From Paenibacillus sp. AN1007 (GTDB taxonomy: Bacteria > Bacillota > Bacilli > Paenibacillales > Paenibacillaceae), in contig NZ_CP159992.1 of NCBI RefSeq assembly GCF_040702995.1, forward strand, positions 4,365,501-4,429,500: a stretch of DNA of 64,000 nt. The letters are read 5' to 3'. The position numbers and the translations under genes are program-made. Each line of letters starts with the position of its first letter. Within the stretch, counting starts at the first letter, position 1. A model generated the notes under the pieces. It searched no databases and was not told the DNA's origin. It saw nothing but the letters and a program-made list of their open reading frames with translations. Of the stretch, positions 44,057 through 64,000 are shown in pieces.

Positions 44057-44086
44057 TTGCTTGTGATCATTAAGGAGGGATACACG

Positions 44087-46535: not shown

Positions 46536-46694
46536 TTAGATTCCTTCAGTTTTCTCTAAAATGTAATCCTCTACTGCCTGTCGATAATCAGGATTAGTAA
46601 TATCATCAAGTAAGTACACCTGACCAGTTTTCGGGTTCATGCCCTTATTTAAAATTCGCTCAGCAGCAATCCTTACTACAACTTCGTTTACCAT
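46536..46694 (-). CDS. small phage protein (52 aa)
   Basis: A 52-residue protein starting MVNEVVVRIAAERILNKGMN, followed by PKTGQVYLLDDITNPDYRQA and an acidic end. The ATG overlaps the stop of the preceding gene (TGATG), and GGGAGGGA lies upstream. The pattern, a helix then PKTG then NPxYRxAV, recurs in small genes between tail fibre and holin in Gram-positive phages. The function is unknown. Confidence 0.8.
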   Translation of the reverse strand: MVNEVVVRIAAERILNKGMNPKTGQVYLLDDITNPDYRQAVEDYILEKTEGI

Positions 46695-46978
46695 CACAAA
46701 ATCCCTCCCGTAGTTTCGTTGGTTAATAGCAGTAACTGGTCTTCTAGTTCCTTCATTTTCTCTTCAGGAGTCAATTCAGGACGAATCCTTTTTATAACTG
46801 GCTTTTTGGTTTCTGGATCAATCTTCTCTACATAATAGATGTTAAGATCGATCTCATCATATTTCAAATCAACGTAATCCAGTTTCTTAATTTCGTTTCG
46901 CGGCGAACCATCACCGGGCATGTAAGAAAGTACAATCTCACCATCTTGGTCATATATGATTCTCATACCTGTTTGCAT
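46694..46978 (-). CDS. hypothetical phage protein (94 aa)
   Basis: A 94-residue protein starting MQTGMRIIYDQDGEIVLSYM, with an acidic middle and a C-terminal coiled helix (PEEKMKELEDQLLLL). The ATG at 46978 has AAGGAGGTGACA upstream, decisive against the longer frame to 47083. It lies between fibre genes and the small protein before the holin. Such proteins are common at this position in PBSX-type tails; I cannot name a function. Confidence 0.75.
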   Translation of the reverse strand: MQTGMRIIYDQDGEIVLSYMPGDGSPRNEIKKLDYVDLKYDEIDLNIYYVEKIDPETKKPVIKRIRPELTPEEKMKELEDQLLLLTNETTGGIL

Positions 46979-47064
46979 TGTACTGTCACCTCCTTCCCCT
47001 ATCTCTATATATTGCGAACACTTGCCAAAAGAAACGTTAAGTAATGACATTAATTCTGAAAATA

Positions 47065-47475
47065 TCAGACGTAAGCTTTCCAAGTGTAATTTGCACCTGA
47101 AACGTTGACGGGAATTCTAAATCCCGATGAATTGATATAAGCGGTATCGTCTCTAGAAGATAACTCGGCTAGTGAATTTCCGGTGAAGAAAAGGACAAAA
47201 AAATTACCGTTACTATTTTTAAGACCTCTGATTAACATCGCTCTTGTGCCAGTGCCGAAGCTGGCGATTACAATGTTTGGTACTGTTGATCCAAAAGGAT
47301 AGTCTACTTTTAGAAATGGCAATAAACCATTGCTAGTATCATCTACAAAACGATAAGTTTGCATCAAGCTGGTATCGTTCGTCAATGTCCCAGAAGCAAT
47401 TAACTCTAAATCTGCGTTTTTATCGAATCCATCTATTCCGTAATTGTTCAACGAGTAGTTATCTATCCCTGGCAT
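47065..47475 (-). CDS. hypothetical phage tail/fibre-associated protein (136 aa)
   Basis: A 136-residue protein rich in beta strands (ASGTLTNDTSLMQTYRFVDD, FFVLFFTGNS, SGFRIPVNVSGANYTWKAYV). The ATG has AAGAGGTGACA upstream and overlaps the stop of the preceding gene (TAATG). AT-rich compared with the baseplate genes, as is usual for host-range modules. Probably a distal fibre or receptor-binding component; no family recognised. Confidence 0.65.
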   Translation of the reverse strand: MPGIDNYSLNNYGIDGFDKNADLELIASGTLTNDTSLMQTYRFVDDTSNGLLPFLKVDYPFGSTVPNIVIASFGTGTRAMLIRGLKNSNGNFFVLFFTGNSLAELSSRDDTAYINSSGFRIPVNVSGANYTWKAYV

Positions 47476-47783
47476 TATGTCACCTCTTTACCGCTGATAA
47501 ATACTGATACTGCGCCAGCAGGAGTGCATGAAAATTGAATAGTCTCCCCTGCGTTAATTATCTGATCTAAGAACGGGATAGTTATCGTGTCATTCCCTTT
47601 AATTTGGTGGTCAAATATGATATACCACCCTGCTATTACCATTCTAAATGTAGCGGCAGTGGTTGTCATATTGCATACACTAACCGCCTTTATCATTGCT
47701 AATGCACCAGCAGGAACGGTGTATGAAGTTGTCAGTGACGATGTTGGGACTCCTCTATAAAACCTTTTTGCTATTGTAGCCAT
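47475..47783 (-). CDS. hypothetical phage tail/fibre-associated protein (102 aa)
   Basis: A 102-residue beta-rich protein starting MATIAKRFYRGVPTSSLTTS, then YTVPAGALAMIKAVSVCNMT. The pattern YTVPAG..A.IK...V.N.T is seen in small adhesin-like tail proteins of phages. It sits between the short fibre gene and the 136-residue protein, with coupled stop/start. Function inferred only from position. Confidence 0.65.
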   Translation of the reverse strand: MATIAKRFYRGVPTSSLTTSYTVPAGALAMIKAVSVCNMTTTAATFRMVIAGWYIIFDHQIKGNDTITIPFLDQIINAGETIQFSCTPAGAVSVFISGKEVT

Positions 47784-48185
47784 CTATAACGCCCCCCATA
47801 GGTCCGATTCATCAAATTTTGCATCAGTGTAAGTTTTAGCATTTGACTGTGCTGTATCAGCCTTTGTTGTGGCATCTGACGCAGCAGTTGATATTGCATT
47901 TTGACGAGCGAGATTTACTGCATTAAGCGTTGCTGCAACTGTCTGTTCAGAGCTGTTTATTTCGTTTCCTAATCTGGTCTTACCTTTGACCATAAGGGAT
48001 GCATCTGGAATATCGTTTTCCCTTATCACTCGGCGTAACATTTCTACTTCATCCTTTGTTGCCACGCTCTCATCAATCTTCTCCCAGTTCTGATCCAAAT
48101 ACTTATCCAGATCAAAATAGGTCGTTGATGGCGAGGAACGATCAATTTTATTCAGCCCTAGATTGGGTGTCTTTGGTTCATTCAT
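47784..48185 (-). CDS. short phage tail fibre protein (133 aa)
   Basis: A 133-residue protein with the N-terminus PKTPNLGLNKIDRSSPSTTY and YLDQNWEKIDESVA, typical of baseplate-attached fibres. It has one Phage_fiber_2-like unit (EQTVAATLNAV) and a C-terminal coiled-coil-like alanine/serine region. The 437-residue fibre of the upstream module shares the same unit (SETVAATEKAV). It ends without a receptor-binding tip, which the two following small proteins may supply. RBS GGAGGTGG upstream. Confidence 0.75.
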   Translation of the reverse strand: MNEPKTPNLGLNKIDRSSPSTTYFDLDKYLDQNWEKIDESVATKDEVEMLRRVIRENDIPDASLMVKGKTRLGNEINSSEQTVAATLNAVNLARQNAISTAASDATTKADTAQSNAKTYTDAKFDESDLWGAL

Positions 48186-48731
48186 TTATGCTCCACCTCC
48201 TGCGAATTTATCCTGCCGAATTTGTTCAATTTCATTCAAGGTCATGCTCTCTACCTCGGCGATGGTCAAATATCTCAGACGGTACTCTACCATCATATGG
48301 GCGGGTTTAATATCTTCGATCGCATTCTTCAGATCGTCCAGATTAGGCGGCAATCCCCACGTATCGATAAAACGGATCAAGATACGGTACTTCCCTGAAT
48401 CGACCGACACATCAATGCCCCCATTTTCGTACGCTTGGGCAACGTTCTTAAGCATGGAGCCTGAGACTTTGCCGCTGCCGCGCATTTTGGAGATGATGAC
48501 GGATCGGCGCTGATCGTCCGGTTTGGCCCGGTTGATCGGAATCTGCAAATCCCGTTCATATCGCTGCAACGCCCAGGTTGCTGATTCCGGGTAAAACTGC
48601 TGCAGTACATCTTCTACCCCAGCAGCAAGCTGGTCTAATGCTGCGCCTTCCGTCTGCGTCAGAAGCTGCATCTCCAGCACATTTTCATAGAGCGGAGGCA
48701 GCAGATTCATTAATACATCCGCTTTACTCAC
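48186..48731 (-). CDS. baseplate protein XkdU/YmfQ-like (DUF2313), module A
   Basis: A 181-residue tail assembly protein of the YmfQ/DUF2313 family. It has LMNLLPPLYENVLEMQLLTQ, ATWALQRYERDLQIPI, DQRRSVIISKMRGSGKVSGS, and LPPNLDDLKNAIEDIKPAHM. The GTG at 48731 has GAAGGTGA upstream and overlaps the baseplate J stop (GTGA). It connects baseplate and fibres. Its counterpart in the other module is at 58853-59443. Confidence 0.88.
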   Translation of the reverse strand: MSKADVLMNLLPPLYENVLEMQLLTQTEGAALDQLAAGVEDVLQQFYPESATWALQRYERDLQIPINRAKPDDQRRSVIISKMRGSGKVSGSMLKNVAQAYENGGIDVSVDSGKYRILIRFIDTWGLPPNLDDLKNAIEDIKPAHMMVEYRLRYLTIAEVESMTLNEIEQIRQDKFAGGGA

Positions 48732-49786
48732 GTCACCTTCACCGTCCCCAGCACAGCGACAGCTCCCGGTGCAATCTCCAGATTGGACATGCCGCCGTTG
48801 ACCAGCAGATTGCTGTAATCGATCACAGGCGGAATATCCAGAATGACATTGGCAATCCTTGTCCAACGAACGAGCGGATCAGCAAAAGCCAGTTCTTTCA
48901 GATATGCCGTCACCCCCGTCTCAATCAAAGATTCCACGCCTTCATACGTTGATCCTGAAGCGAGTGTAACCTGTACTTCGATATCAATGGGGACTTCTTC
49001 CGCCCCCACAACTGTGACAACAGGGCCTATGGGGGCGGCCCCTTCGCCCATGCCATCCTGCGTAGGATCGATATACTGCTGCACGGCCTCAATGATGCCC
49101 TCAGCAGGAGCATGCATCTCATTATTGAGCAAAGCCACCTTAACCGTGCCCGGACCATTCCACAGCGGAAATGCCTTCGCTTTGCCAACTCCGGAATTTT
49201 CCCGCGCCCACAGCTCATATTGATACTTGTTCGCACTTGTGACCGGGCGAGAAACTTTGTCCTGATAACGATCATACAGAGCTTGATCGGTCTCCTCGTC
49301 TTCCCCTGGAACCAACAATTTGTTTAATTCGGCGGTGGTCAGTCCTGCAATGTAATCAATGGGTAACAGTGTCCCGGTGTACTCATTGCCTTCCGCACCA
49401 GCAACCTCACTTTCGAGCAAAAATTGCCCTGCGGTGATCCGCTCCACAGCTCTATATACTCGTTCGCCTGTCGAAAAACGGCTTTCCAGCGGAACATCCA
49501 CAGGTTTGCCCGCATTATCTCGAAAGCTTGCAGACCAACGCGCCTTCGTAGGCGGTTTGCGGGTAATGCCTGACCACGCTACCGCGCGATCCAGATACTC
49601 ACCCGAAGCGGTATCCGCAAATTTCAGATTGGCGTTGATATCCAATTCAATATACATCTGGGCCATCTCCACCGCTGCTGGAGCGAGGGCATCATAGATG
49701 ATGCTGCCTTCCCGCTTGTCCACGCCATCCGGAACCTTGTCCAACATCCGGGTCAATATGACTTCAAATGTTTCCTGTTCATACAT
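48728..49786 (-). CDS. baseplate J-like protein (XkdT), module A
   Basis: A 352-residue baseplate wedge protein of the Baseplate_J family (PF04865). The N-terminus MYEQETFEVILTRMLDKVPD and EGSIIYDALAPAAVEMAQMY are diagnostic, and the IDYSNLLVNGG and AVLGTVKVT end matches XkdT. It overlaps the DUF2634 gene by 8 bases. Contractile tails need it for sheath attachment. The module B copy is at 59635-60774. Confidence 0.92.
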   Translation of the reverse strand: MYEQETFEVILTRMLDKVPDGVDKREGSIIYDALAPAAVEMAQMYIELDINANLKFADTASGEYLDRAVAWSGITRKPPTKARWSASFRDNAGKPVDVPLESRFSTGERVYRAVERITAGQFLLESEVAGAEGNEYTGTLLPIDYIAGLTTAELNKLLVPGEDEETDQALYDRYQDKVSRPVTSANKYQYELWARENSGVGKAKAFPLWNGPGTVKVALLNNEMHAPAEGIIEAVQQYIDPTQDGMGEGAAPIGPVVTVVGAEEVPIDIEVQVTLASGSTYEGVESLIETGVTAYLKELAFADPLVRWTRIANVILDIPPVIDYSNLLVNGGMSNLEIAPGAVAVLGTVKVT

Positions 49787-50192
49787 TCATGTTCACCTCC
49801 GTCTCCTGTCTGAAGCTTCCGAAATCCGTTGTTACGGTAAAAGAAACCTTGACTCCATCCGGCTCATGGACAAAATGAAATTCGGTGACTTCCGAAATTC
49901 GGTCGTCTGGAAGAAGTGCTTCCTGAATCCAGCGTTCCAGTTCGGATTCAACCATGGATTTCCCGGAAATACCTTCCCAAGACCATTCCATGCCGTAATC
50001 AGGCGAATAAATCAGATGTTCATAACGACGTGTGGACAAAACTTTGTACACTGCCTGTTTAACTGCCTCTTTTCCGTCTAACTGAAGCCTTCCAATGCGC
50101 TGCCCTGAAGCCTGAAGCACATAAGTTAGACTCGGAAGCACCGAAACTTCTTCCTGATCTTCTCCACCTATTTGAGAACCTTGAGGAATCAT
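49779..50192 (-). CDS. XkdS-like baseplate protein (DUF2634), module A
   Basis: A 137-residue gp25/DUF2634-type protein with LPSLTYVLQASGQRIGRLQL, GKEAVKQAVYKVLSTRRYEH and LIYSPDYGMEWSWEGISGKS. The family contributes to the baseplate of PBSX-like contractile tails. It overlaps XkdR by 4 bases (ATGA) and baseplate J by 8. Confidence 0.9.
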   Translation of the reverse strand: MIPQGSQIGGEDQEEVSVLPSLTYVLQASGQRIGRLQLDGKEAVKQAVYKVLSTRRYEHLIYSPDYGMEWSWEGISGKSMVESELERWIQEALLPDDRISEVTEFHFVHEPDGVKVSFTVTTDFGSFRQETEVNMNV

Positions 50193-50446
50193 GGCTTCAC
50201 CAGCCGATCCAATACAACATAACTGTCCCCACCCTGTACACGCAGCAACAAAGCCGAGTCTCCCATCATCCAGCTTTTTTGGGCTACCGATTCCGTGAGT
50301 ACGAGAAAAGGGTCACTCAGTGCAAGCCGCTGCTCCACGGTGATCTCCAAAGGCTGCGTGTTCGTCACGCTTCCGTACATAATCTGTACGGGTGACTTGG
50401 CATCTACAGCGGCCACCGCCGCTTTTTTAATCACATCAAGCATCAT
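50189..50446 (-). CDS. XkdR-like protein (DUF2577), module A
   Basis: An 85-residue DUF2577 protein starting MMLDVIKKAAVAAVDAKSPV. The SDPFLVLTESVAQKSWMMGD and LLLRVQGGDSYVVLDRL strands are typical. It belongs to the baseplate hub region in PBSX. Much shorter than the 136-residue counterpart in module B. Confidence 0.88.
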   Translation of the reverse strand: MMLDVIKKAAVAAVDAKSPVQIMYGSVTNTQPLEITVEQRLALSDPFLVLTESVAQKSWMMGDSALLLRVQGGDSYVVLDRLVKP

Positions 50447-50452
50447 TACTGG

Positions 50453-51462
50453 TTACACCACCTTCAAATCCAGTGACATTGTGTGCACACCCCCCTGTAC
50501 CTTGTGCGTACACTCGTCCACCAGAAAATATTGATTGATCTTCAATTCATCGATCTGAATGTTGACGAAACTTCCGGCTCTCACCTTGAAATCGCCAAGA
50601 GCATCGACTTTCAACGTCTGTGTCTCCCGGTTACGCAGGGTCATCAGCGTTTTCAGCATGTCATCAATCTGACCTTGATTCAGACCATCGTCCGCTTTTT
50701 GGTACAAAAAAGCAGCCCCCATCGACGGATGCTGCCTGAATCCTGATGCACAAACGTTTCCCGTTTGCCCGTATCCTTGTTATCCCGATACAACTTGATT
50801 TTGTTATAGGTCTGCTCGTCAATCGACCTTGTGTAACTGTAATCCGTAAGCAGGCTGTGATCCCCAATGACAAAGCCATAGGGCATCTCTTCTACGTCCC
50901 GAAGGGTAAGCCTGCCGAAATCATCGTAAAAGATATAGTTTTTACCGCCATAAATCAGCGTCCGATCCAAAGCTTCACAGATCATATCCATCAGCTTTTT
51001 ATTATCAAAAAGCATACGTGGAATGACATACTTGGGCTGCTTCAACTCACCCGTTTTCAGCTGAAAATCCGCTGCAATACGCTTGATCACATCCGCCGCT
51101 GTGGCGTTAACAAACTGATACGTCTGATTCGCGGTGAGATAACGTGTCTGGTCATAGGCTTTGATCTTCACACTCTCGTCCTTGCTGCTGTCCACTGAGA
51201 AAACATATCCATAGAATATACCTTCTTTCCCATGAGAGTATCGTACAACATATCCATTCTCGTAACTAAATTTCCGATTCTGAAATATGCTGCCCTTAAT
51301 CAACGTAAATTCGAGAGAGGATGGCTTGCCGATTCGAGAGGTTTTATACGAAATATCGCCAGCAATATCGCTGATGTCCCAGATGTTACCTTGTTTGTCA
51401 TCCAACAACAGCTCTTCCTTCTCAATCAATTTCCGGTTGTCCAGATGGATCACCTGCTGCAT
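50453..51462 (-). pseudogene. XkdQ-like hub protein, frameshifted (module A)
   Basis: The first part (to about residue 260) matches XkdQ: LIEKEELLLDDKQGNIWDIS, TSRIGKPSSLEF, then VEEMPYGFVIGDHSLLTDYS and KRETFVHQDSGSIRRWG. The frame then breaks at a run of six T (minus strand, 50711-50706). The expected continuation YQKADDGLNQGQIDDMLKTL to HTMSLDLKVV lies in the -1 frame and ends at 50453. The ATG at 51462 has AAAGGAGGGA upstream. One missing T, a sequencing error, or -1 slippage on CTTTTTTG would all explain it. The intact counterpart in module B is a single frame of 329 residues. Confidence 0.8.
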
Positions 51463-51475
51463 ATCGTCCCTCCTT

Positions 51476-52174
51476 TCACGGAAGCTTAATAACAAGTCCA
51501 ACGGGCAGCTTCTTGAGCTGTGCGTCTTTGATGCCATTCAGCTTCTGCAGCTCTTTCCAGCGTGCTCCGTCACCCAGATGAGCTTTGGCGACAGACCACA
51601 GGGAGTCTCCAGCTTTCAGCGTGACGGTCTTGGGTTTTACTTTTTCATTCGGCCGAGAGGCTTTGGTTTTCATTTTCGAAGCCGCAGTCTTGTTCTGACT
51701 GTTCTTCACAGGTTCTACTTTTTTCGCGGCATAAAAAACATACTGCTTCAGCTTGAGATCATACTGAATATCCCCTACCGTACCCGCTGTCTCCTTCCAA
51801 TCAAAGCTCTCGATGGAGACAGCCATGTTGACCGTATATCTTGCACTGGAAAAGATCAGCCTGACGGGTCGTCCTGTCTGCATCCAGCGGATGATATCCT
51901 TCACATACTCATAGGGATCACGGTATAACTCTTTCGGGGCTCCGGGGTCTCTAGCGTCGTATTTGTAATGATATGGACTGTAATCAGCCGGAAAAATACC
52001 GCTGAAGCTTACTTCACGAAGTTTTGGGGACTTGATCACATTGATCTCCCCTAGACGGCTAACGTTAAACGTACTTCCGTCCCCTGCATCTGAAAACTCA
52101 ATACTCTCCGGTATAACCGGGAAATAAATATATTCCGCACGGTTGTTAAAGCTTAACTGAATCGAATAGTCCAC
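51476..52174 (-). CDS. LysM domain tail protein (XkdP-like), module A
   Basis: A 232-residue protein with an N-terminal XkdP/gp53-type domain (YFPVIPESIEF, LGEINVIKSPKLREVSFSGI) and a lysine-rich linker. The C-terminal LysM (about 182-230) contains TLKAGDSLWSVAKAHLGDGA and RWKELQKLNGI. It links the tape measure or tail tube end to the hub. The GTG at 52174 directly follows the tape measure stop. Confidence 0.9.
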   Translation of the reverse strand: MDYSIQLSFNNRAEYIYFPVIPESIEFSDAGDGSTFNVSRLGEINVIKSPKLREVSFSGIFPADYSPYHYKYDARDPGAPKELYRDPYEYVKDIIRWMQTGRPVRLIFSSARYTVNMAVSIESFDWKETAGTVGDIQYDLKLKQYVFYAAKKVEPVKNSQNKTAASKMKTKASRPNEKVKPKTVTLKAGDSLWSVAKAHLGDGARWKELQKLNGIKDAQLKKLPVGLVIKLP

Positions 52175-54157
52175 TTATCCATACACCCCCTGGGCACTGG
52201 AAACGATCTGACTGTTCAGTCCATCGGTAATTTTACTAATAATACTGTCTACATCATGACCACTATTTATATCACCTGTCGTCACCTGCACCGTTGGTGT
52301 CAGACTGACGAAGCGCTGGGTCGCCTGCATCTCGGCAAGCTCACGCATCAGTTTCAGATCCTCGCTCGTTACGTCCACGGTGCCGTCCACATCACCGATT
52401 TTGTCCACCTGTCCGATATTGTTAATCTTGTTGAGGTTACTCATATTGTTCATGTTTGTGGGGGCAGGTGCTGTTGGTATGGATGGCATGGGAGGAGTTT
52501 TGGGGTTCGCACTCTTGCCGAAACCGTTCCCGAATCCACCAGGCAAATTTGTGTCTATAGAGTTTGGATTGGGCATAGAAGGTATTTTTGAAAATAACTT
52601 TTTTGATACATCCTGTCCATTATCAAGTACCTTGGGATCGAACTCTCCGTTCATCCGCTTCATATGGAATACATCTTTATCACTCTGAGGCTCCATTAAT
52701 TTAATAGTGTCCATCCATCCCTTGACGTTTTTGCCCACGATGTTGATATCAGATTCGGACAAGACTGCCAAATTCGTGCCAAAAGTATCGTTGATAAAGG
52801 AAGCCACTTTACCAATTGCCCCCATTGCTTTCCCAAGAAACCCCTCGATCCCTACTATAATATTGTAAAATGTCTGCAATGCGAACATTCCTAAATCATA
52901 GAGCAGTTTTTTCCCTGCATAGATCGGGGCATTAAACACATTTGCTATGAAATCTGCGAAGATAGCGAAGCCATTCCACATGTTCGCAATCACTACTCTT
53001 ACCATCTCTCCAAGCAGCATAAATGTACCGATAATTACTCCTAAAATCTCGGTTCCTGATACGCCCATCATGTTCAAGATACCAATGACTGCTGCGATGG
53101 CAGCAATGGCAAGCAGAATCGGCCAATTCAGCAATAACCAAGCAGCAGCGAGACTATAAACTTGGGCAATGACCAAAGCCAGAACTACAATCGCTAACGC
53201 CATCAGGATCGGCTGAATAATATCCCAGTTCTGCTGAATTACAGCAGCGATATACAAGATACCATCGACCAGCATCTTCAGTGCGTTAGCAGCTACCATA
53301 AATGCATTGCTGATCCATTCAATTATGCCCGTAAATTCTCCATTGGCAAAAGCTTCATTCAATCGATCTAATAGAGGTGTCAGAGCCATGAGGGCTGCCT
53401 GTCCAATCTGACCAAGTACTCCATTGAATTGGTTTACAAGTGCATTCCACTTCTGGAGAGGTGAATCCAGCATGGTTTCGAAAGCTTGTTGGGTGTAGCC
53501 TTGCTTTTGCAAAATCACATCTAACTTCTGAATAAACCCGTCCAGATTGGATGCATCAATCGTCTGCTGCAGCCCTGCCCCGTTTAACACTCCTTCTGGA
53601 ATATTAAAAGACTTAGCCAGATCACCATTATCTCCATTCATGGCGGCAACTAAGGCTCCTGCTGCGTCTGACATGTTTTTGCCATCTGGAGATAACATGC
53701 TCATCCGTTTAGCCATATCCCGCAGCTTGTCCATCTGATCTGTATTCTGTGCATATGGGATAAGGGACAGTGCACCTTGTAAACCATCCGTTACATTCTG
53801 TCCACTCTTGAATCCTTCTGCTCGATAACGATTAAATATCGTCTCTCCCTGAGCATCATCGCCTGCTGCAGCCATATACCGATGCTTCAGGTCCTCCTCC
53901 TGTGCTGCCGGGGACAGAACGGCTTGTCCTGCTGACTTGATCATGCCAATCCAGGCTCTGACTCGCTGAGCCCCTTCAGCAAAAGCCGCATTCACTTTAG
54001 CCTGCTCCTGAGATACCTCTCGAAGCAGATTACCTGCAGCAGCAATGCTGTTCAAACGCGCAGAGCTAAACGCAGTACTGATCGCCGCAGGCATCCGTTG
54101 AAATTGCTGAATCATTCGGTTGGACATGACATATAACCTTGCAAACATGGCATACAT
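52175..54157 (-). CDS. tail tape measure protein, module A
   Basis: A 660-residue tape measure protein, setting tail length. The N-terminal half is helical (RVRAWIGMIKSAGQAVLSPA, AAGDDAQGETIFNRYRAEGF). Long hydrophobic stretches lie at about 265-400. The tail is Pro/Asn-rich (SIDTNLPGGFGNGFGKSANP), with a C-terminal LTPTVQVTTGDINS. It follows the chaperone genes as in all tailed phages. The ATG has AAGGAGGGA about 12 bases upstream. At this length the tail would be moderately short for a contractile tail. Confidence 0.9.
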   Translation of the reverse strand: MYAMFARLYVMSNRMIQQFQRMPAAISTAFSSARLNSIAAAGNLLREVSQEQAKVNAAFAEGAQRVRAWIGMIKSAGQAVLSPAAQEEDLKHRYMAAAGDDAQGETIFNRYRAEGFKSGQNVTDGLQGALSLIPYAQNTDQMDKLRDMAKRMSMLSPDGKNMSDAAGALVAAMNGDNGDLAKSFNIPEGVLNGAGLQQTIDASNLDGFIQKLDVILQKQGYTQQAFETMLDSPLQKWNALVNQFNGVLGQIGQAALMALTPLLDRLNEAFANGEFTGIIEWISNAFMVAANALKMLVDGILYIAAVIQQNWDIIQPILMALAIVVLALVIAQVYSLAAAWLLLNWPILLAIAAIAAVIGILNMMGVSGTEILGVIIGTFMLLGEMVRVVIANMWNGFAIFADFIANVFNAPIYAGKKLLYDLGMFALQTFYNIIVGIEGFLGKAMGAIGKVASFINDTFGTNLAVLSESDINIVGKNVKGWMDTIKLMEPQSDKDVFHMKRMNGEFDPKVLDNGQDVSKKLFSKIPSMPNPNSIDTNLPGGFGNGFGKSANPKTPPMPSIPTAPAPTNMNNMSNLNKINNIGQVDKIGDVDGTVDVTSEDLKLMRELAEMQATQRFVSLTPTVQVTTGDINSGHDVDSIISKITDGLNSQIVSSAQGVYG

Positions 54158-54181
54158 ACTTTCATTTCCCTCCTTCCTTCA

Positions 54182-54364
54182 TTATTTCTTCCGAGTGCGG
54201 CTTCTCGCCCGCTCTTTCTTCTCTTCCTCCACCCGGACCTGGATCATCGCATAGATCGCGGCCCTTTCTCGCATCGAGAAGGCCATTAGCTCATGCGGCA
54301 AAATCTTTAATTCATGGAGAGCGTAATACGCCAGATTGGCTTCGGAATCGCCCTCTTTGATTAG
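54182..54364 (-). CDS. frameshift extension of the tail assembly chaperone (-1 frame)
   Basis: A 60-codon open stretch in the -1 frame relative to the chaperone gene. It starts at the slippery site with LIKEGDSEANLAYYALHELK and ends in the basic tail RARSRTRKK. It lacks its own start codon and ribosome binding site near the 5' end. It ends 25 bases before the tape measure start. With the 140 residues of the upstream gene it makes a 200-residue product, analogous to lambda gpGT. The internal composition is clearly coding. Confidence 0.82.
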   Translation of the reverse strand, partial: LIKEGDSEANLAYYALHELKILPHELMAFSMRERAAIYAMIQVRVEEEKKERARSRTRKK

Positions 54365-54783: not shown

Positions 54784-54803
54784 GTGTAGTTCCTCCTTCT
54801 AAG

Positions 54804-54838
54804 TTAAAACTCTTCGCCGCGTAGGGCGGCGAAAGAGT
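54804..54838 (-). terminator. intra-operon terminator after the tail tube gene
   Basis: On the minus strand ACTCTTTCGCCGC pairs with GCGGCGAAGAGT across a 5-base loop, followed by TTTTAAC. It lies in the 230-base gap between the tube and chaperone genes and would lower expression downstream of the abundant tube protein. Confidence 0.72.
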
Positions 54839-55472: not shown

Positions 55473-55473
55473 C

Positions 55474-56788
55474 TTAAACCACCTTCACTTTCATGTATAC
55501 TTTTTCAACGGAATCCACAGGCTGCACCTGCACTTCGATCAAAATACTGTCGGTTTCACTGCCCGGAAGCACGGTAATGTCCGTTTTGGAATCAAAGTTT
55601 TGAATCGCTCCAATATCTTGAAGCTGCTTCAGATATGTGACACATTGGGAACGGAACAGGCTGCGTCCATCCTCGTTGTTGTTTACTTTACCGATGTAAT
55701 AGGATTCGAAAATACGTTTCATGTCGTTGGCGATGCCATCCAAAACACGGACCACACGGTTTTTGGCAAAATGGCGCGCCTTATCCGGTGTCACCGAACG
55801 TAAGGTATTCACATCCTGCTCAACCAGCGCACGGCCTGCTCGCTGTGAATACAAACTCCCCGTTACGCAGCGCCGTCTCTGTTTCGGTATGGGTCAACCG
55901 TCCGTTTACATCCACAGCATCGTCGTACGCCCGGAATGTCAAGGATTCGTTCAGATTAGCTCCTGCGGTTGCACCAGCAGTCCAAGCTACGGCTTGTTTC
56001 GGTGTAAGAGCTGTACCATCTGCAAGCACAACCCCATTTTTGACACTAATGACGCCTTCATGATCCGCAGCCGGGTAATTGGAAAGCACCAGCTGTACCT
56101 TCTTGCCCTCTGTATCACGTAAACGTCTGATATATGCAGTATAAACGGACTTCAGTGATGCATCGTCTGAGATCAGACCAACCGTGTTGAAATCAAGCAC
56201 CTCCAGTTTGCTTAGGAAATCGGCATGCTCTTGGTTCGTAGATGCGCCATCCTCTCCACCTGTTAGCGGAAGTGACGCAGTAGTTGTAAGTGTACCTTCG
56301 CCAGTGAAGGTGATAAATGCATTGGATTGCAGCTGACCGATGGTGGACACCGTCTGTTTGTGCACTTCTTTGCCAGCGAGCAAAGTAGATACATCGAATT
56401 GCTCTGGCTCATTCATATTGGCCGAAATAACAACTGCCAAATCGTTGCCGCGTACACCCCCATGCTGAGCAGTTACTGTAAGAGTGTCCAAAGCGGCCTT
56501 GGCCTTCGTCCCAGCATTAAGTCGATACAAAAGTAAGGTCTGTGCACGTTTTAAAGCTTCACGAACCAGCAGCAGTTGTGGTGCTGTCCAGTCGTAACCG
56601 AGTTTCGTTTGTACATCGTCACCTGCTTGTACCGTCAGGATTGTACCCGCTTGTCCCCAGGACAGAGGAAGTGCCAAAGCTGCGGTTCCCCGCTCTCCAA
56701 CCGTTCCGGGCAGTTTGCCCTCCGATGCAAAATTCATATATACGCCAGGGCGTACCTTATTTTGAGTTGTCCATGTTCCTCCAGCCAT
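55474..56788 (-). pseudogene. tail sheath protein (XkdK-like), frameshifted (module A)
   Basis: The first frame (55820-56788) starts MAGGTWTTQNKVRPGVYMNF, has the sheath core (LSNYPAADHEGVISVKNGVV), and reaches ETALRNGEFVFTAS before a short alien tail and a stop. The expected end, GRALVEQDVNTLRSVTPDKA to VQPVDSVEKVYMKVKVV, lies in the +1 frame from about 55845 to 55474. The break is within 55835-55850, with no homopolymer. Sheath normally needs both halves, so this copy looks inactivated unless the base call is wrong. Combined length (about 440 residues) is normal for XkdK. Confidence 0.85.
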
Positions 56789-57000
56789 TATTGTGCCTCC
56801 CCATTCATAAATTGTTGAATATGCTGCTGTGCTTCCTGCACGGTGTAAGTTTGCTGCTCCAACAGCAGCGCTGCCAGAATATCTTTCTCCAATCGGCTAA
56901 ACTGCCGGGCTTCGGCAAACTGTGCTTTGCTGTATTTGGTATCGTTATGCTGCTGATCTACCTCAAGGTTCTTTCGATCTGCTTCTTTCTTGGTGAACAT
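56788..57000 (-). CDS. small phage tail protein (70 aa)
   Basis: A 70-residue helical, charged protein starting MFTKKEADRKNLEVDQQHND, with KDILAALLLEQQTYTVQEAQ. The ATG at 57000 has AGGAGG 10 bases upstream; the longer frame to 57027 precedes that site. Its stop overlaps the sheath start (TAATG). Small genes at this site occur in PBSX-like clusters; the function is unknown. Confidence 0.72.
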   Translation of the reverse strand: MFTKKEADRKNLEVDQQHNDTKYSKAQFAEARQFSRLEKDILAALLLEQQTYTVQEAQQHIQQFMNGEAQ

Positions 57001-57057
57001 CGCGAGTGCGCCTCCTATTCCTTTCATAATAATTCCCCCTAAAATAAGTTCATCCTG

Positions 57058-57474
57058 TTATGTTAATTTCAAAGCAGTTGGCCGTTGTTCCAGCTGCTGC
57101 ATTGGACCGGAGGACCCCGACACTTTGGTGGTTCGCATCGTGTAATACACCCACAGTTTGGGTGTCTCCCCCCACGCTTTCCATCGCAGCTCCGTTGCCC
57201 GATAAGGTGTTCCGTCGACTTCAATGGTCTCCAGTGCTTCAAAGAGCTTGTCTGGCAATCCCTCTGGAATGCTGTTCTCATCCAGCCAACGGATCTCGAA
57301 GATATGAGACTGAACAAACCGATCACTGCGTTCACGAGTGAGTTTTGCTGTGATTAGACGGTAGCTTAGACCTTGATCTTCTGGGATGGCTTCATAGGCA
57401 GGAATGATTGGGATATCAATGAAATGATATGATAGTTTTGCAGCGATAGCAGTGGTTAATTGAGTTGTGGTCAT
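57058..57474 (-). CDS. phage tail terminator-like protein, module A
   Basis: A 138-residue protein (TTQLTTAIAAKLSYHFIDIP, PAYEAIPEDQGLSYRLITAK, RWLDENSIPEGLPDKLFEAL) with the length and position of the tail terminator (XkdJ/DUF6838-like) that precedes the sheath gene. It has GGAGGTGA upstream. It is the first gene of module A after the fibre gene of module B. Name given from context and pattern, so moderate certainty. Confidence 0.7.
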   Translation of the reverse strand: MTTTQLTTAIAAKLSYHFIDIPIIPAYEAIPEDQGLSYRLITAKLTRERSDRFVQSHIFEIRWLDENSIPEGLPDKLFEALETIEVDGTPYRATELRWKAWGETPKLWVYYTMRTTKVSGSSGPMQQLEQRPTALKLT

Positions 57475-57548
57475 GATTCACCTCCTTTTTTGCTGATTTC
57501 CATTCTAAACTTAAAAATATTATCTGTTCGACAATGATAAACCCACAT

Positions 57549-58853
57549 TTAATAGCCCCAAGCTTCCCAAAAAATCTGATTATATTGCCAATTGTAGTTA
57601 GTAACGCTAAACCCATTACTGCTTATTTTATTTTCTCGAATAGTACCTCCGAATCCAGACATTCCAGTACCATCAGTACTCGTATCTGGGGTGATAAAAC
57701 CGTAAACGCGATGAATAGCTTCATCAAAGAGAAAACAAACAGTGAATCTATCATCGTTATTAGCATAACGACCATACATTTTGACCATTTTAGGTCTGAA
57801 TGCGATCCCACTAACACTAACTCTTCCCTCAGAGGCATAAGTACTATCTCGAGTATACTTTGTAGTTTCAATCATACTGATTTTTTGGGCAAGTACGGCA
57901 TTCGAATCACTCGTCGTTGCCCGTACACCTTTAGCTGTTATCTGATTCGCTATGCTTTGTTTTTCAGATGTAGTCATACGTTCTAAAGCCCCTGTTACAC
58001 CAAAAAATGTTTTGTCTTTAGGCAAATTCCCAGCTATAAGATTAGGCTCACCTTTAATTATAATTGATGTCGTATATCGTCCTTCCGCTTTAATTTGGTC
58101 CACAACCCCTGGTACAACTGTTCCACCAGTTCCACGATCAGGAATAGTACCCGTTAAGCCATTTGCATTTGCATTGCTAAACGTTTTACCAGCTATTACG
58201 TCATCACTTGTTACATCTCCTGTTGCAAGAATTATTGATGATAATTTGGGAATAAGTTTATCCCATGATTCATTTGTGGTTGCTGATACGCCGACGGAGT
58301 TAAGCGCGGCAACCACTTCCGCTTTTCGCTCAACTCCAGCTTGAAAAGCTGCGCTCACCGCCTTCTCCGTCGCCGCCACCGTCTCGGACGTGCCGTCGGT
58401 CTTGTTGGACAGCTGTACTATCCCCGGTTCAGTCAATGATGCAGGCGGGATGGTTGCGTTTTGGAGTTCCTCCTGCAGCTGTTGAATTTCGTCCCTTGTA
58501 GGTACTTTTTTCCACGAACCCCATCCGAAATAGTAGTTGCGTTGAAAAACTTGTAAGTCACTCGGCTCGAAAGTTGTTAGAGTTTGGACGACACCAGCAT
58601 GTTTTTCTATCGTCAAATGAAAAGCTACACCTGTTGGAGAATTAGCTAAAGTTTCTACCGTGGCATTCTCCGGGCAATAATACTCCCCTTCTGTAATATA
58701 ACTATTAAGATCAGAGCCAGCAGATATAAGAATTGCTTCACGTGTCGCCACACCAGCATCAATCTTTTCAAAAATCCTGTTAATACTCTCCCGGGTCACA
58801 TTCTCGTTCCCCAAGGGAAGAGGTAATTTCAATCGATCCGTTTCTTTTGGCAT
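57549..58853 (-). CDS. phage tail fibre protein, module B
   Basis: A 434-residue fibre. The N-terminus has MPKETDRLKLPLPLGNENVT and RIFEKIDAGVAT, the baseplate attachment type. A Phage_fiber_2-like unit (LTEPGIVQLSNKTDGTSETV) lies near 140. Repeats of the tail-fibre type follow: DVIAGKTFSNANANGLTGTI near 220 and NLIAGNLPKDKTFFGVTGAL near 272. The C-terminal 110 residues form the likely receptor tip. The ATG at 58853 has GGAGG upstream and overlaps the stop of the previous gene (TAATG). It is AT-rich compared with the baseplate genes. Confidence 0.85.
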   Translation of the reverse strand: MPKETDRLKLPLPLGNENVTRESINRIFEKIDAGVATREAILISAGSDLNSYITEGEYYCPENATVETLANSPTGVAFHLTIEKHAGVVQTLTTFEPSDLQVFQRNYYFGWGSWKKVPTRDEIQQLQEELQNATIPPASLTEPGIVQLSNKTDGTSETVAATEKAVSAAFQAGVERKAEVVAALNSVGVSATTNESWDKLIPKLSSIILATGDVTSDDVIAGKTFSNANANGLTGTIPDRGTGGTVVPGVVDQIKAEGRYTTSIIIKGEPNLIAGNLPKDKTFFGVTGALERMTTSEKQSIANQITAKGVRATTSDSNAVLAQKISMIETTKYTRDSTYASEGRVSVSGIAFRPKMVKMYGRYANNDDRFTVCFLFDEAIHRVYGFITPDTSTDGTGMSGFGGTIRENKISSNGFSVTNYNWQYNQIFWEAWGY

Positions 58854-59443
58854 TACGCCCACACCTCCAGTTCATTCCACGTCAGGGACGCAGCATCAAG
58901 TTCATCCCAAGTTTTCTGCTTCTTGTCCAGATCGTCCCAGACCAGATAACGGTATTTATATTCCACAGCCATGTGGGCCGGCTTCAGCTCATCAATGGCT
59001 CGTTTCAGATCATCAATATTGGGCGGAATGCCCATGGTATCTACAAAGCTCACCGTAAAGCTCCACGCTTCAGGCTGAAAATTGACATCAACCTTGCCCC
59101 CGGCATACGCTTCAGCCACGTTAGCTACCTGCCTGCCCGAAAACTTGCCTGCCCCGCGCAGCTTCGACTCTACCACAGCACGCCGCTGCTCTACAGGTTT
59201 GAGACGATCCGTCTCTATGCCAAGCTCCTGCTCCCAAAAGTCCAGTCCCCACGTCGCCGTACGGACAAAAAACTGCTCCAGCGTCTCGTCCAGAGCCTGA
59301 TACAGCATATCTATCTCCGCACCTTTGGCCTGCATATCGGCCTGCATGACACGGGAAGTCTCATAGTACCGGGGCAAATAGGAGAACATCTCCCGGCCCT
59401 TCTCACTCGTCAGTCCAGCATGTACAGCAGAAGGAGCATTCAT
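58853..59443 (-). CDS. baseplate protein XkdU/YmfQ-like (DUF2313), module B
   Basis: A 196-residue YmfQ/DUF2313 protein with FSYLPRYYETSRVMQADMQA, ATWGLDFWEQELGIET, EQRRAVVESKLRGAGKFSGR and IPPNIDDLKRAIDELKPAHM. The extra C-terminal DDLDKKQKTWDELDAASLTW is a repeat-like helix. The ATG has AAGGAGGA upstream. It is related to, but clearly different from, the module A copy. Confidence 0.9.
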   Translation of the reverse strand: MNAPSAVHAGLTSEKGREMFSYLPRYYETSRVMQADMQAKGAEIDMLYQALDETLEQFFVRTATWGLDFWEQELGIETDRLKPVEQRRAVVESKLRGAGKFSGRQVANVAEAYAGGKVDVNFQPEAWSFTVSFVDTMGIPPNIDDLKRAIDELKPAHMAVEYKYRYLVWDDLDKKQKTWDELDAASLTWNELEVWA

Positions 59444-59642
59444 GTCCTGTGTCCTCCTTTCTATTCACATTCGAGGAAGAGGTACGCTCACGGGACTGCT
59501 GCGCCCGGAAATAACTTAATCCTGGTCCCAAATCTGCCTCGGCTCCGTCAAGCTTCTCCACCAAGGAATTCAGGACATTCACCAATGCCTGTCCATCCAT
59601 CTTGTCGACTGACCCCCTCACCTCTACCCCCACACTACTCAT
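59403..59642 (-). CDS. small hypothetical protein between baseplate genes (79 aa)
   Basis: A 79-codon frame starting MSSVGVEVRGSVDKMDGQAL, then VNVLNSLVEKLDGAEADLGP. The start overlaps the baseplate J stop. The helix-forming first 55 codons look coding; the end overlaps the next gene by 41 bases. No good ribosome binding site. There is no equivalent in module A. It may be a real small protein of this module. Confidence 0.42.
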   Translation of the reverse strand: MSSVGVEVRGSVDKMDGQALVNVLNSLVEKLDGAEADLGPGLSYFRAQQSRERTSSSNVNRKEDTGHECSFCCTCWTDE

Positions 59643-60774
59643 AGACATCCACCGTCCCCAGCACAGCCACCTGGCTGGCGGTCATCTCGATATTTTGGTC
59701 GCTGACATCGTTCACAGTCAGCTCCGAATAGTCGATAATCGGCGGAATGTCGAGTAGGATTGCGGCGATGCGGGTGTACCGCACGAGAGGGTCGGCAAAA
59801 GCAAGCTGCTTCAAATACGCGGTCACTCCGCGTTCGATTAATGCCCGGACATCTGCCAGCGCCGCATCACTTGCCAGCGTAAGCTTCACCTGAATGTTCA
59901 TCGGCACTTCCTCTGCCGGCATCACCGTCACGACAGGTCCAGCCGGGGCAGCACCTTCGCCCTGTCCATCCTGCGTCGGGTCAACATATTTTTGCACTGC
60001 AGCCACCAGATCTGAGCCTGCAGCACGCTTGTCCGTGTCCAGCAGATACAGTCCAACCGTACCCGGCCCCTGCCACAGCGGGATCACCCGCGCTGCCCCG
60101 ACGCCCGGCACTTCACTGGCCCACTGCACATACTGTGCCTTGTTGCCGCTTGTTCCCTGGTTGCGGACTTTGGCATAAAAGCGCTCCAGCAGCGCGGTAT
60201 CTGCCTCGATGTCCGCACCGCCCTTAATCACATCTGTGTTCACCACAGATGTTACGCCGCTTACCGGTGTAGACAGCACGGTTACGGTGCCTGCGGGTAC
60301 ATTGCTTTCTTTTCCGGCAGCGAGTGCTCTTATGCCTACAGTCCCGACACCATCCTCACCAAGCTCCACACGGCTCACGGTTTCATATTCCAGCGATGCT
60401 TCACCAGACACTTCGTCCGCAAGTGTAGCCACCACCGTTCCTGCTGGCACCACTTTACCCGGCTCACCCGTAAATTTCACTGTGCCCTGTGCTGCGACCG
60501 CCGCCCGGCGTGTAATGCCATGTTCCCCCGCCCGCAAGTCCAGCTCCTCCGAACGAAAATTCGGATCACGGCTTGCTGCCGTGCTGGCAAATCCACGCCG
60601 CAGCAGCTCCTGCGCCCACAATGCTGCTTCGGACAGCATAAAGGCTGCCGGAGCCTCTGCATCCCACAAAAACGAACCTTCCGACTTATCCAGATCCGCG
60701 GGTAGACGATCCAGCATACGCTGCATGATCTGTTCCTCCGTCTGGTCCTCCAAATAACGCGGAATCTCAGCCAT
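59635..60774 (-). CDS. baseplate J-like protein (XkdT), module B
   Basis: A 379-residue baseplate wedge protein. It has YLEDQTEEQIMQRMLDRLPA, EGSFLWDAEAPAAFMLSEAA, and the shared core ADPLVRYTRIAAILLDIPPI with an IDYSELTVNDV end. AGGTGA lies upstream. Module A's homologue (48728-49786) shares the same architecture but has a different middle domain. Confidence 0.92.
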   Translation of the reverse strand: MAEIPRYLEDQTEEQIMQRMLDRLPADLDKSEGSFLWDAEAPAAFMLSEAALWAQELLRRGFASTAASRDPNFRSEELDLRAGEHGITRRAAVAAQGTVKFTGEPGKVVPAGTVVATLADEVSGEASLEYETVSRVELGEDGVGTVGIRALAAGKESNVPAGTVTVLSTPVSGVTSVVNTDVIKGGADIEADTALLERFYAKVRNQGTSGNKAQYVQWASEVPGVGAARVIPLWQGPGTVGLYLLDTDKRAAGSDLVAAVQKYVDPTQDGQGEGAAPAGPVVTVMPAEEVPMNIQVKLTLASDAALADVRALIERGVTAYLKQLAFADPLVRYTRIAAILLDIPPIIDYSELTVNDVSDQNIEMTASQVAVLGTVDVYE

Positions 60775-60778
60775 CCCG

Positions 60779-61234
60779 TCAGATCACCTCACTTTCCAGA
60801 ATAAACGTCTCTTCCTGCACACTCATCACCCGGCACGAAAACCGGCACTGCTCCCGGTCCCAGTCAAAGGCAAACTGGTCCACCGCATCCGTACGCGGAT
60901 CCGCGAGGAGCGTTTCCGTCACCATCCGGGCAATCTCACTTTCCATCACACCGCGGCTGTCCCCCTGGCCCACCAGATCCTCCAGTTCCGAGCCATAGTC
61001 TCGGGAGTAGATCACATGTCTGTAACGCGGGGTTTTCACCGCCTTGATGCACCACTGGACCCACGCCTCATGTGCGTCTGCCGCAGCCACTTTGCCGCTT
61101 GGGGTCAGCACAAAATCACCGGCATCATAGTCGTAGCGCCAGCTCCGTCCAAAACGTACCTCCTCCGAAGCCGCACCCGACAAGTCCTCTTCATCTCCCC
61201 AGACCATACCCGTTTCCGGAAATAAACTAGGCAT
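60779..61234 (-). CDS. XkdS-like baseplate protein (DUF2634), module B
   Basis: A 151-residue protein with MPSLFPETGMVWGDEEDLSG, WVQWCIKAVKTPRYRHVIYS, RDYGSELEDLVGQGDSRGVM. Homologous to 49779-50192. I chose the ATG at 61234 with AAGGTGG about 9 bases upstream; a GTG at 61240 is close to it. Confidence 0.88.
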   Translation of the reverse strand: MPSLFPETGMVWGDEEDLSGAASEEVRFGRSWRYDYDAGDFVLTPSGKVAAADAHEAWVQWCIKAVKTPRYRHVIYSRDYGSELEDLVGQGDSRGVMESEIARMVTETLLADPRTDAVDQFAFDWDREQCRFSCRVMSVQEETFILESEVI

Positions 61235-61637
61235 GGGCACTCACCACCTTACACAGCACCACAATATCGTTACCGCCATTTACCCGCATCGCCAGCACAC
61301 GGTCCCCGGCCATCAGGCCTTTTCCCAAAGACCAAACCGCTTCTTCCACTTCCCCTTTTTGCAAAAGAAACCGTCCCGTGCTTGTCGTACCGCCGTTTGC
61401 CACGTCAGATATGCCGGAGATGGCGCCAGCCAGCTCGCGCTCCGGCAAATATAATGTCCCAGGCAGCTCGGCCACGAGATAATCCTGCACTTCGTGCTTG
61501 AAATCGTCCAGCTTCACACCGGACGCTGTCATCGTACCCAGCACCGCACCAAGGCCGCTCACCGCCTGGCGGGAATGGTTACTCATCGCTCCCCGCATCA
61601 CATCGGCAAAGTGCCCATACGGATCTTCTTTACTCAA
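61227..61637 (-). CDS. XkdR-like protein (DUF2577), module B
   Basis: A 136-residue DUF2577-type protein. It has DVMRGAMSNHSRQAVSGLGA, VLGTMTASGVKLDDFKHEVQ, and GLMAGDRVLAMRVNGGNDIV. The TTG at 61637 has GGAGGG upstream and overlaps XkdQ's stop. Longer than the 85-residue module A protein. Confidence 0.85.
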   Translation of the reverse strand: MSKEDPYGHFADVMRGAMSNHSRQAVSGLGAVLGTMTASGVKLDDFKHEVQDYLVAELPGTLYLPERELAGAISGISDVANGGTTSTGRFLLQKGEVEEAVWSLGKGLMAGDRVLAMRVNGGNDIVVLCKVVSAHA

Positions 61638-62619
61638 GGTAAACCCTCCTTTTTACCAGCTCCGCCGTACCGAGCTCCAGCGTCATTGTGCCCGGCCCAG
61701 CCGACAGATCACGGCTGACCGACATGACGATCAGCTTCAACCCTTTGAGCGTGACCGCGTCTCCGGCGCGAATGGTATTGATATCCGGGACCGAAACCGT
61801 AAATGTCTCCTGGATACCCGTCAGCTTGCTTTTTGCCAGCTTTTTGGCGGCGCCGGTTGTTTTCACCTGATCGTCCTCGATCAGTTTTTGCAGCGTACCC
61901 AGCTGTTCTGTATCCCCCTGCTCAATCGCCAGCACTTTCGAAGGCACCTCTTTGCCACTACCGCCAGATTCAGACGCAGCCATCACCTTTACTTTGGTGA
62001 CTGCCCCCTCCAGCGTACGCAGCTGCGTCAGATCGATCAGCCGATCCAAAGCATGCACCTTGGTATTGCTCCCTACCTTGAACAGCTGCAGCCCGCCGGG
62101 CGTCATCCGCGGATGGTACATCTCTCCCCCGGATTTAGCGGTTTCTTTGAGGTCGGCGAACATCATTGCAAAAATCGTCTGCGACCGGTACACCGCCTTG
62201 CCCAGCTTGGTCTTGATTTCCGGCATTGCAGCCAGAGGAATTTTCCATTCCTTGGCGTACGATTTAAGCCGCTGCACAGCGGTCTGATCCTTGGGAAAGA
62301 GGAATTCGTCCTCTGATTTTTCGAGATAAATCATCCGGTCGTAGACCGTGAGGGACAAGCGTTTTGTGCCGCTGTTTGAGCTTTCCATTTCCCAGATAAC
62401 TGCCGGATGCAGCAGATGTACCATTGATTTCTCGCCAAAAGGAACCCCGCTGATCCGTACCGGCATTCCCGGTGAAATCGCAGGCAGCCCGGAAGAAGCC
62501 GACACTGCCAGCCGAATGTTCGCCTGGTAGGCGATCTGATCCAGCGAATCCTTGAGTGTGATCGTCTCGACCAGGTTGGTGACATCATGCTTGTCATCGA
62601 CAATGACTTTGTAGGTCAT
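61630..62619 (-). CDS. XkdQ-like phage hub protein, module B
   Basis: A 329-residue intact hub protein (late control/YqbQ type). It has YKVIVDDKHDVTNLVETITL, SLTVYDRMIYLEKSEDEFLF, KSYAKEWKIPLAAMPEIKTK, and FTVSVPDINTIRAGDAVTLK. It lies between XkdP and XkdR with 4-base overlaps. Module A's XkdQ (50453-51462) is a distant homologue with a frameshift. Confidence 0.88.
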   Translation of the reverse strand: MTYKVIVDDKHDVTNLVETITLKDSLDQIAYQANIRLAVSASSGLPAISPGMPVRISGVPFGEKSMVHLLHPAVIWEMESSNSGTKRLSLTVYDRMIYLEKSEDEFLFPKDQTAVQRLKSYAKEWKIPLAAMPEIKTKLGKAVYRSQTIFAMMFADLKETAKSGGEMYHPRMTPGGLQLFKVGSNTKVHALDRLIDLTQLRTLEGAVTKVKVMAASESGGSGKEVPSKVLAIEQGDTEQLGTLQKLIEDDQVKTTGAAKKLAKSKLTGIQETFTVSVPDINTIRAGDAVTLKGLKLIVMSVSRDLSAGPGTMTLELGTAELVKRRVYLE

Positions 62620-63281
62620 GGCATCACCAGCTTTTGCCCCGGCTTGATCCGGTTCGGATCACTGCCGATCGTTTTGGCATTGAGCTTGTAAATCTCGTTC
62701 CATTTGGAACTGTTCCCCAGCTCAAGCTTCGCTATTTTTGACAGAGAATCCCCGGCTTTGACGGTATAGGTCCTGCTCGTCTTTTTCAGATCTGTTCGTG
62801 AACTAGACTTACTTGCGGCAGCCCCCGAACCCACCTTCTCCACTTTGGAATCCCGCCAGGTTCGCAGGGTCAGGTCAAAATAAATATCTCCCGTCTCTCC
62901 GCCGCGGAAGCTCGAATTAAGCGAAATCAGAAACACCGGCACATTCACTCCGGTCCCGGAAATGATGAAACGCAGCGGCTTTTTGGAGATCAGGAACGTA
63001 TTCAGCACATTCATCGCCACGCGCGGATCGGGAATGTCCGTCACCGTACAATAGGACTCGTCGTACTCTTTGGGAAAAAAAGAAGAGAAGGTGATCTCCT
63101 TCACCTTCTCCCCCTGCGCAAAATCAAATTCGCCATGCTCCAGCATCTGGATTGTTTCGTACCCCTTGGATCTGGAGATGTTGACCTCCTCCGGGTTGAC
63201 CGGAAATTGAAACGAAGTGCTGCCGTCCTTCAACGTGAACGACATTTGGTTAGGTCCAACTTCATCTTTAAGTACAGACAT
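62616..63281 (-). CDS. LysM domain tail protein (XkdP-like), module B
   Basis: A 221-residue protein with an XkdP-type N-terminal domain (SFTLKDGSTSFQFPVNPEEV, EGDFAQGEKV-like EHGEFDFAQGEKVKEITFSS). A Ser/Lys-rich linker and a C-terminal LysM follow (TYTVKAGDSLSKIAKLELGN, RIKPGQKLVMP). The ATG has AAAGGAGG upstream. It overlaps XkdQ by 4 bases. It corresponds to 51476-52174 in module A. Confidence 0.9.
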   Translation of the reverse strand: MSVLKDEVGPNQMSFTLKDGSTSFQFPVNPEEVNISRSKGYETIQMLEHGEFDFAQGEKVKEITFSSFFPKEYDESYCTVTDIPDPRVAMNVLNTFLISKKPLRFIISGTGVNVPVFLISLNSSFRGGETGDIYFDLTLRTWRDSKVEKVGSGAAASKSSSRTDLKKTSRTYTVKAGDSLSKIAKLELGNSSKWNEIYKLNAKTIGSDPNRIKPGQKLVMP

Positions 63282-63301
63282 ATCTGCGGCCTCCTTTCTG
63301 C

Positions 63302-64000
63302 TTAGGCCATAATCGTTTTGCGATTTTGCATCGCGCGGCGCAGCTCGTTAGTAATCCGCTGTCCCACCTGTTGACTTACAATATCGTAATCTATAGCGTT
63401 CTCGCGAACTGTCACTTGTACCGTTCCCGGCGCAATATGGACATCGATCTGGTTCGTTGTTTCGGTTTTGAAATCCTTGAGGTAACCCGCCAGACTGCCC
63501 ATCTGCTCTTCGGAAATGTGAACCGTCATCGGGGAAGCTTTACTATTCGATTGAGCGGTGTTATGAACGGCTATGGCTTGGGACTGCATCATACTGGCGC
63601 CCATCAAACCCGCGGAGGTTGATGTACCCAACTGATTATTCATGTAAGCTTCAGGACCAGTGATTGATAAAGCTGCCGGCCTGTATGGCGGCGGCATCTG
63701 CGGTGCTGCCGGCACGGAAGGCGATGAGGATGCTGCTGCAGGCGGAGCGGTCTGTTCTTCCTTTTTCGAACCGAAACCGAAGAAATTCGAGATGCCTTCT
63801 GTCAGCCCTTTTGTTTTCTCAGAAAAATAATCCGCTACTCCAGTTATTGCTTTACCTGCTCCCTCAGACGCTTTGGAAAAGAAGTTTCCGATATTCTGTA
63901 CTTTACTGCCAATCCAGCCGCCTGCTTCACTTCCCAACCAGCCTCCAACTGCACCCCCTACGTATGTTCCAATCACTGGTGAGATCAGCGTTCCCAGCGC
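63302..64000 (-). CDS. tail tape measure protein, C-terminal part (module B, partial)
   Basis: An open frame of 232 codons that runs off the right edge of the window. It is glycine-rich with amphipathic helices (GGAVGGWLGSEAGGWIGSKV, GNFFSKASEGAGKAITGVAD), has a Pro-rich linker, and a C-terminal DIVSQQVGQRITNELRRAMQ. It sits before XkdP as tape measures do in this family. The full start is not visible. Confidence 0.85.
   Translation of the reverse strand, partial: ALGTLISPVIGTYVGGAVGGWLGSEAGGWIGSKVQNIGNFFSKASEGAGKAITGVADYFSEKTKGLTEGISNFFGFGSKKEEQTAPPAAASSSPSVPAAPQMPPPYRPAALSITGPEAYMNNQLGTSTSAGLMGASMMQSQAIAVHNTAQSNSKASPMTVHISEEQMGSLAGYLKDFKTETTNQIDVHIAPGTVQVTVRENAIDYDIVSQQVGQRITNELRRAMQNRKTIMA

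Follow-up and report, generated by a model that had tools for sequence, protein, structure and literature searches.

Paenibacillus sp. AN1007, a strain of the Paenibacillus amylolyticus group, carries a locus of two contractile-tail modules and one lysis cassette that, judging from its sequence and from comparison with relatives, very probably is a double R-type tailocin that this group has domesticated and keeps at a fixed chromosomal site. The window that we analysed (64,000 nucleotides, G000:C1:4365501-4429500 of a genome assembled as a 6.64-Mb single contig) was joined to the next 38 kb for gene calling, with the numbering continued past the window end. The locus lies on the minus strand and runs from ~69.4 kb to 44.7 kb in the order leader, module B, module A, holin and GH25 lysin. 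Module B encodes a 331-aa terminator, a 66-aa protein, sheath, tube, XkdN, tape measure, XkdP, Q, R, S, T, U and fibre, and module A has the same gene set. Families in both modules were assigned by Pfam and PHROG searches, whose independent matches bear out the gene order and coordinates of the initial annotation as well as its description of two tandem contractile-tail modules sharing a single holin and a single GH25 lysin.

The initial annotation, made within the window, pointed to the right for a second sheath/tube set, and extension in that direction revealed the complete contractile-tail set of module B (sheath, tube, tape measure, baseplate and fibre) without head genes. Just past the window's right end (65257-69162) lie the genes for the tail terminator (68167-69162), the small protein (67886-68086) and, as identified by Pfam, the sheath (66423-67886), the tube (65846-66253) and the XkdN-like chaperone (65257-65691). 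The tape measure gene (590 aa, 63302-65074), assigned from its position and from weak PHROG tape-measure/tail matches, crosses the window end and is followed by XkdP (LysM, 62616-63281), XkdQ/YqbQ (61630-62619, PF24032), an XkdR-like protein of 136 aa (61227-61637, assigned by phrog_2403 and position), the sheath initiator XkdS (60779-61240, PF10934), the 379-aa baseplate J protein XkdT (59635-60774, PF04865), XkdU (Mu Gp48, 58853-59443, PF10076) and a 434-aa tail fibre whose tip varies among relatives (57549-58853, PF03406 and PHROG tail fibre families), all on the minus strand. The terminator has no Pfam match, and its AlphaFold model (mean pLDDT 80) matched the phiCD508 neck protein (9gb5_H) at E=8.6e-21, along with several tail terminators, in a fold search. 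Module B should therefore end in its own cap, as module A does. A plasmid search with part of the module B tape measure as query gave no match.

Module A follows on the same strand with a tail terminator (57058-57474, PF20765), a 70-aa protein (56788-57000, phrog_966), a sheath (55474-56788, PF04984 and PF17482 in different frames), a tube (55014-55472, PF09393), an XkdN-like chaperone (54361-54783, PF08890), a 660-aa tape measure protein (52175-54157, phrog_1068 at E=2.3e-82), XkdP (LysM, 51476-52174), XkdQ (50453-51462, PF24032 in two frames), an XkdR-like protein of 85 aa (50189-50446, PF10844), the sheath initiator XkdS (49779-50192, PF10934), the 352-aa baseplate J protein XkdT (48728-49786, PF04865), XkdU (48186-48710, PF10076) and three fibre ORFs recognized by PHROG (47784-48185, 47475-47783 and 47065-47475; together 47065-48185). 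Two small phage-type ORFs of 94 and 52 aa (46536-46978, phrog_1626 and phrog_1243) precede the shared holin (45952-46449, PF05105) and the shared GH25 endolysin (44750-45694, PF01183), again on the minus strand. The lengths given initially for the two XkdR-like and the two baseplate J proteins were borne out, and the claim that the modules are not a recent duplication holds because the sheaths of A and B are only ~35% identical. Terminator, sheath, tube, chaperone, tape measure, baseplate and fibres are encoded separately in A and in B, so that either module should assemble a contractile tail of its own with its own range of targets, and since module A sits between the fibre gene of B and the lysis genes, one holin/endolysin pair would free both kinds of particle.

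The absence of head and packaging genes noted in the window extends to the chromosomal flanks: the ORFs annotated in the interval that the YbaK-like gene (44.6 kb) and the DUF4127 gene (70 kb) enclose include no head, portal, terminase, packaging or integrase genes, and all encode tail, fibre, lysis or small unknown proteins. An AAA ATPase and cargo toxins of the eCIS Afp/PVC type are likewise missing from the annotated genes of the locus, and no peptidoglycan hydrolase domain was found in module A or module B. An HTH-cupin regulator gene and the YbaK-like gene (43499-44566, plus strand) adjoin the lysin gene, an arrangement shared, among the loci compared, only with G004 and G069.

Module A is complete by gene content, and its sheath and XkdQ genes are frameshifted. 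The sheath and XkdQ genes reported initially are thus present, the 322-aa sheath being the product of a truncated gene and XkdQ being split rather than intact. In the sheath gene, disrupted between ~55815 and 55854 by a two-base loss plus a substitution outside any homopolymer, the N-terminal domains are encoded in one frame and the C-terminal PF17482 domain in another (55474-55854); the other aligned copies from fixed loci all keep the gene in frame (21/21). XkdQ is one base short in a run of seven Ts and is split into ORFs 50680-51537 and 50453-50722, which match PF24032 positions 1-215 and 213-294; it is in frame in most relatives and broken at the same place in G005 and G054, two lower-quality assemblies. 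Programmed frameshifting was ruled out for both genes, as the frame is continuous in relatives. An initially elevated ratio suggestive of relaxed selection past the lesions vanished once only in-frame codons were compared by lineage, and by this measure neither relaxed selection nor an excess of amino-acid change was found downstream of either lesion, which argues that the lesions are recent or that one or both are errors. The position of the XkdQ lesion in a T run, where long reads typically err, its recurrence in the two lower-quality assemblies and the lack of excess amino-acid change would all fit assembly errors in one or both genes and two functional modules in AN1007; we consider this possible and on balance doubtful, because a comparison of ~80 genes over ~75 kb with each of two relatives returned these two as the only real split genes, both in module A (one further split was an antisense ORF inside the lysin gene), and because the sheath lesion is not of the homopolymer type. 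A sequencing error may account for the XkdQ lesion by itself. Provided that the assembly is correct, the two frameshifts mean that AN1007 at present would make a contractile particle from module B only.

Counting by sheath type over 75 congeneric genomes, we found the module B sheath in 65 (~69-100% identity; two are split). Modules B and A occur together in 28 of these 65 carriers, with the A-type sheath ~10-13 kb downstream, and module B occurs alone in 37/75; module A stands alone at the site in a single genome (G044), and nine have neither. The flanks are constant in the loci compared from the clade (a solute-binding-protein [SBP] gene downstream and DUF4127 upstream where within reach), relatives' loci have the same bounds as that of AN1007, and the site is occupied by B plus A, by B only or, in G044, by A only. 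In G010, G047, G048 and G060 we also noted short sheath-like proteins of ~350 aa; when matched to the B sheath, they leave out its residues ~97-209. Several further genera of the family also have B-type baseplate genes, and in G267 and G278, two genomes from another genus, B is followed by A and then by one holin. In phage records, relatives of the module B sheath and of the module A baseplate J protein were found only below 60% identity.

Trees of the two modules bear on their history. On the module B tree, in which G006 is the nearest relative of AN1007, single and double loci are mixed, requiring a minimum of 15 changes, and G021 retains a remnant of module A's terminator; module loss therefore appears to be common. 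All 22 fixed module A copies of the amylolyticus clade form one group (SH-aLRT 100), while module A of the other genus forms a separate group of unresolved placement among prophage tails, so the B plus A pairing may have arisen more than once. At five standalone A-type loci of other genomes, the tail genes directly follow genes that resemble capsid and connector genes, as judged by sequence and gene order alone, which suggests that module A derives from a PBSX-like prophage. We infer that module A was inserted after B, and the trees also fit an older pair with repeated loss. An intact holin gene lies between B and A, with none after A, in G010 and G011, and holin fragments lie between B and A in G042 and G021. 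Across these four genomes (loci L057-L060, L065 and L093) holin genes or pieces of them stand between B and A or after B, and these extra traces point to both modules having originally carried lysis genes of their own. Elsewhere in AN1007, and in contrast to the tailocin locus, a third sheath gene (at 1.14 Mb) is found downstream of a MuF-type head gene (PF04233, Pfam) in a run of phage ORFs; the region around it (G000:C1:1131329-1156000, L008-L009) resembles a separate prophage and combines contractile tail genes and this head gene with holin- and lysin-like ORFs of its own.

Strong purifying selection acts on both modules: most of their structural genes have dN/dS values of ~0.03-0.12, near that of the flanking SBP gene, and the core genes of both are intact in nearly all relatives. 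Pairwise divergences of A and B correlate, with Spearman coefficients of 0.68 for XkdT and 0.80 for the sheath over pairs that are not independent. The fibres vary: a short N-terminus of the module B fibre is conserved and the remainder largely or wholly lacks a counterpart in near relatives, the fibre tips show little or no similarity even between relatives with cores ~94% identical, and the fibre genes of module A are mostly not conserved. The pair of modules is kept by selection across many related species.

Ahead of module B, ~100 bases before its first gene, lies a structured leader of ~115 bases with a built-in terminator (69266-69380, minus strand, past the window). Its elements are, in order, GTAAGATTRTATYATCGG, the first half of a long stem, ACCGAA, a small and then a G+C-rich hairpin, a T run after the latter, GCGGT and the second half of the long stem. 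Folding of three leader sequences against shuffles gave z values of -4.0 to -5.9. From a MAFFT alignment RNAalifold retrieved just 9 pairs, a shortfall that probably reflects stem arms of differing length between clades, and pairing was instead judged by folding each sequence and by swapping arms. All 38 aligned sequences (38/38) formed 12-32 long-stem pairs when folded, the pairing energy of the arms was below that of all 100 shuffles in 33/38, and the sequences' own arms paired better on average than swapped ones (mean -20.2 versus -15.4 kcal/mol, with 22% of swaps better). A covariance model built on the leader core and run on the 75 congeneric genomes found the leader in 63, usually in two copies in the main clade, which precede the tail genes and DUF4127, respectively. 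The nine genomes that have no tail locus all lack it, as do G017, G023 and G074, whose module B is divergent. The AN1007 genome has only two significant copies, the second and weaker one preceding the DUF4127 gene (G000:C1:4437216-4437387). In the A-only locus of G044 (L111) two strong copies were seen, before a 195-aa ORF and before module A. A search of Rfam 15 over 901 bases gave the leader no match at E<=1, and upstream of module B, where the cluster starts, no convincing LexA/SOS box was found. We take the leader as a candidate switch for the cluster as a whole, with attenuator-like control, and its first conserved block possibly has a promoter or DNA-binding role. More tentatively, and with somewhat less than even confidence, we propose that the leader represents a new cis-acting RNA class that gates the tailocin cluster, its terminator stopping the transcript unless a factor allows readthrough; the DUF4127 gene, of unknown function, would then belong to the tailocin response, since the second copy precedes it.

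The initial annotation had offered a dual tailocin locus or fused prophage remnants as explanations, and the full second sheath/tube set, the lack of head genes between the chromosomal flanks, the constant position of the locus in dozens of species and the low dN/dS values favour the former over the latter. Two side-by-side prophage remnants in decay could account for the two frameshifts of AN1007 module A, for A-type tails lying downstream of capsid-like genes elsewhere and for the holin fragments (G042, G021) and intact holin genes (G010/G011) between B and A, yet we regard them as quite improbable given that site and gene order are constant across so many species and that both modules evolve under purifying selection with their core genes intact in nearly all relatives. 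Shared lysis genes and the co-occurrence of the modules in 28 genomes might also be read as the mark of a single kind of particle to which both modules contribute, or of a machine that does not kill and serves, for example, in DNA transfer or host interaction. Each module is self-sufficient, however, B stands alone in 37 genomes and A in G044 at the same site, and toxin cargo, an AAA ATPase and head genes are not seen, making this very improbable. In the double tailocin that we favour, module B would be an old tailocin of the family at the DUF4127-SBP site, and module A, kin to the tails of apparently complete PBSX-like prophages elsewhere in the genus, would have come to lie between B's fibre gene and the lysis genes; the leader with its internal terminator probably determines through readthrough whether transcription enters the cluster, and we infer that the particles would be co-released and would kill.

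The locus resembles PBSX of Bacillus subtilis in the Xkd gene order and families of its tail and baseplate, and it differs in having two modules and no head genes. PBSX is single-module, encodes a head and packages host DNA. Closer parallels exist in Pseudomonas: a single cluster of P. protegens CHA0 specifies two distinct R-tailocins, each with a tape measure of its own and both served by one lysis set, and the pair has been attributed to two prophages (PMC7815802); other Pseudomonas tailocin clusters encode one to four particles (PMC8319346). The Paenibacillus locus, known from its genes, likewise would specify two different contractile tailocins from a single cluster that has one lysis set and no head genes (PMC7815802), and it shares tape measures of different length, a fixed chromosomal hotspot and varying particle number among relatives (PMC7815802, PMC8319346). 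Unlike the Pseudomonas clusters, it resides in a Gram-positive host, uses PBSX-type (Xkd) tail genes, pairs a holin with one GH25 lysin, with no spanin seen and no adjacent regulator identified, and is preceded by a structured terminator leader. Diffocin of Clostridioides difficile is a contractile bacteriocin of a Gram-positive (PMC11329794), and the model of the B terminator resembles collar/terminator folds, the diffocin collar being among the weaker matches. The available part of the diffocin report mentions no second module and describes a hydrolase domain released on contraction (PMC11329794), in contrast to the two modules of the Paenibacillus locus, in which none was found. The Paenibacillus eCIS whose fibre has been studied (PMC12923769) is a different system, and we found no Paenibacillus locus of the present kind described in open-licence papers.

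By analogy, the locus would function like the double tailocins of Pseudomonas, and it has those features of a tailocin locus that can be tested in the sequence. Double tailocins with one lysis set, known in Pseudomonas, would here have a Gram-positive counterpart that is widespread in Paenibacillus, whose natural single- and double-module relatives allow the benefit of carrying two phage-tail weapons to be tested, and the leader provides a specific handle on how a tailocin cluster may be switched on.
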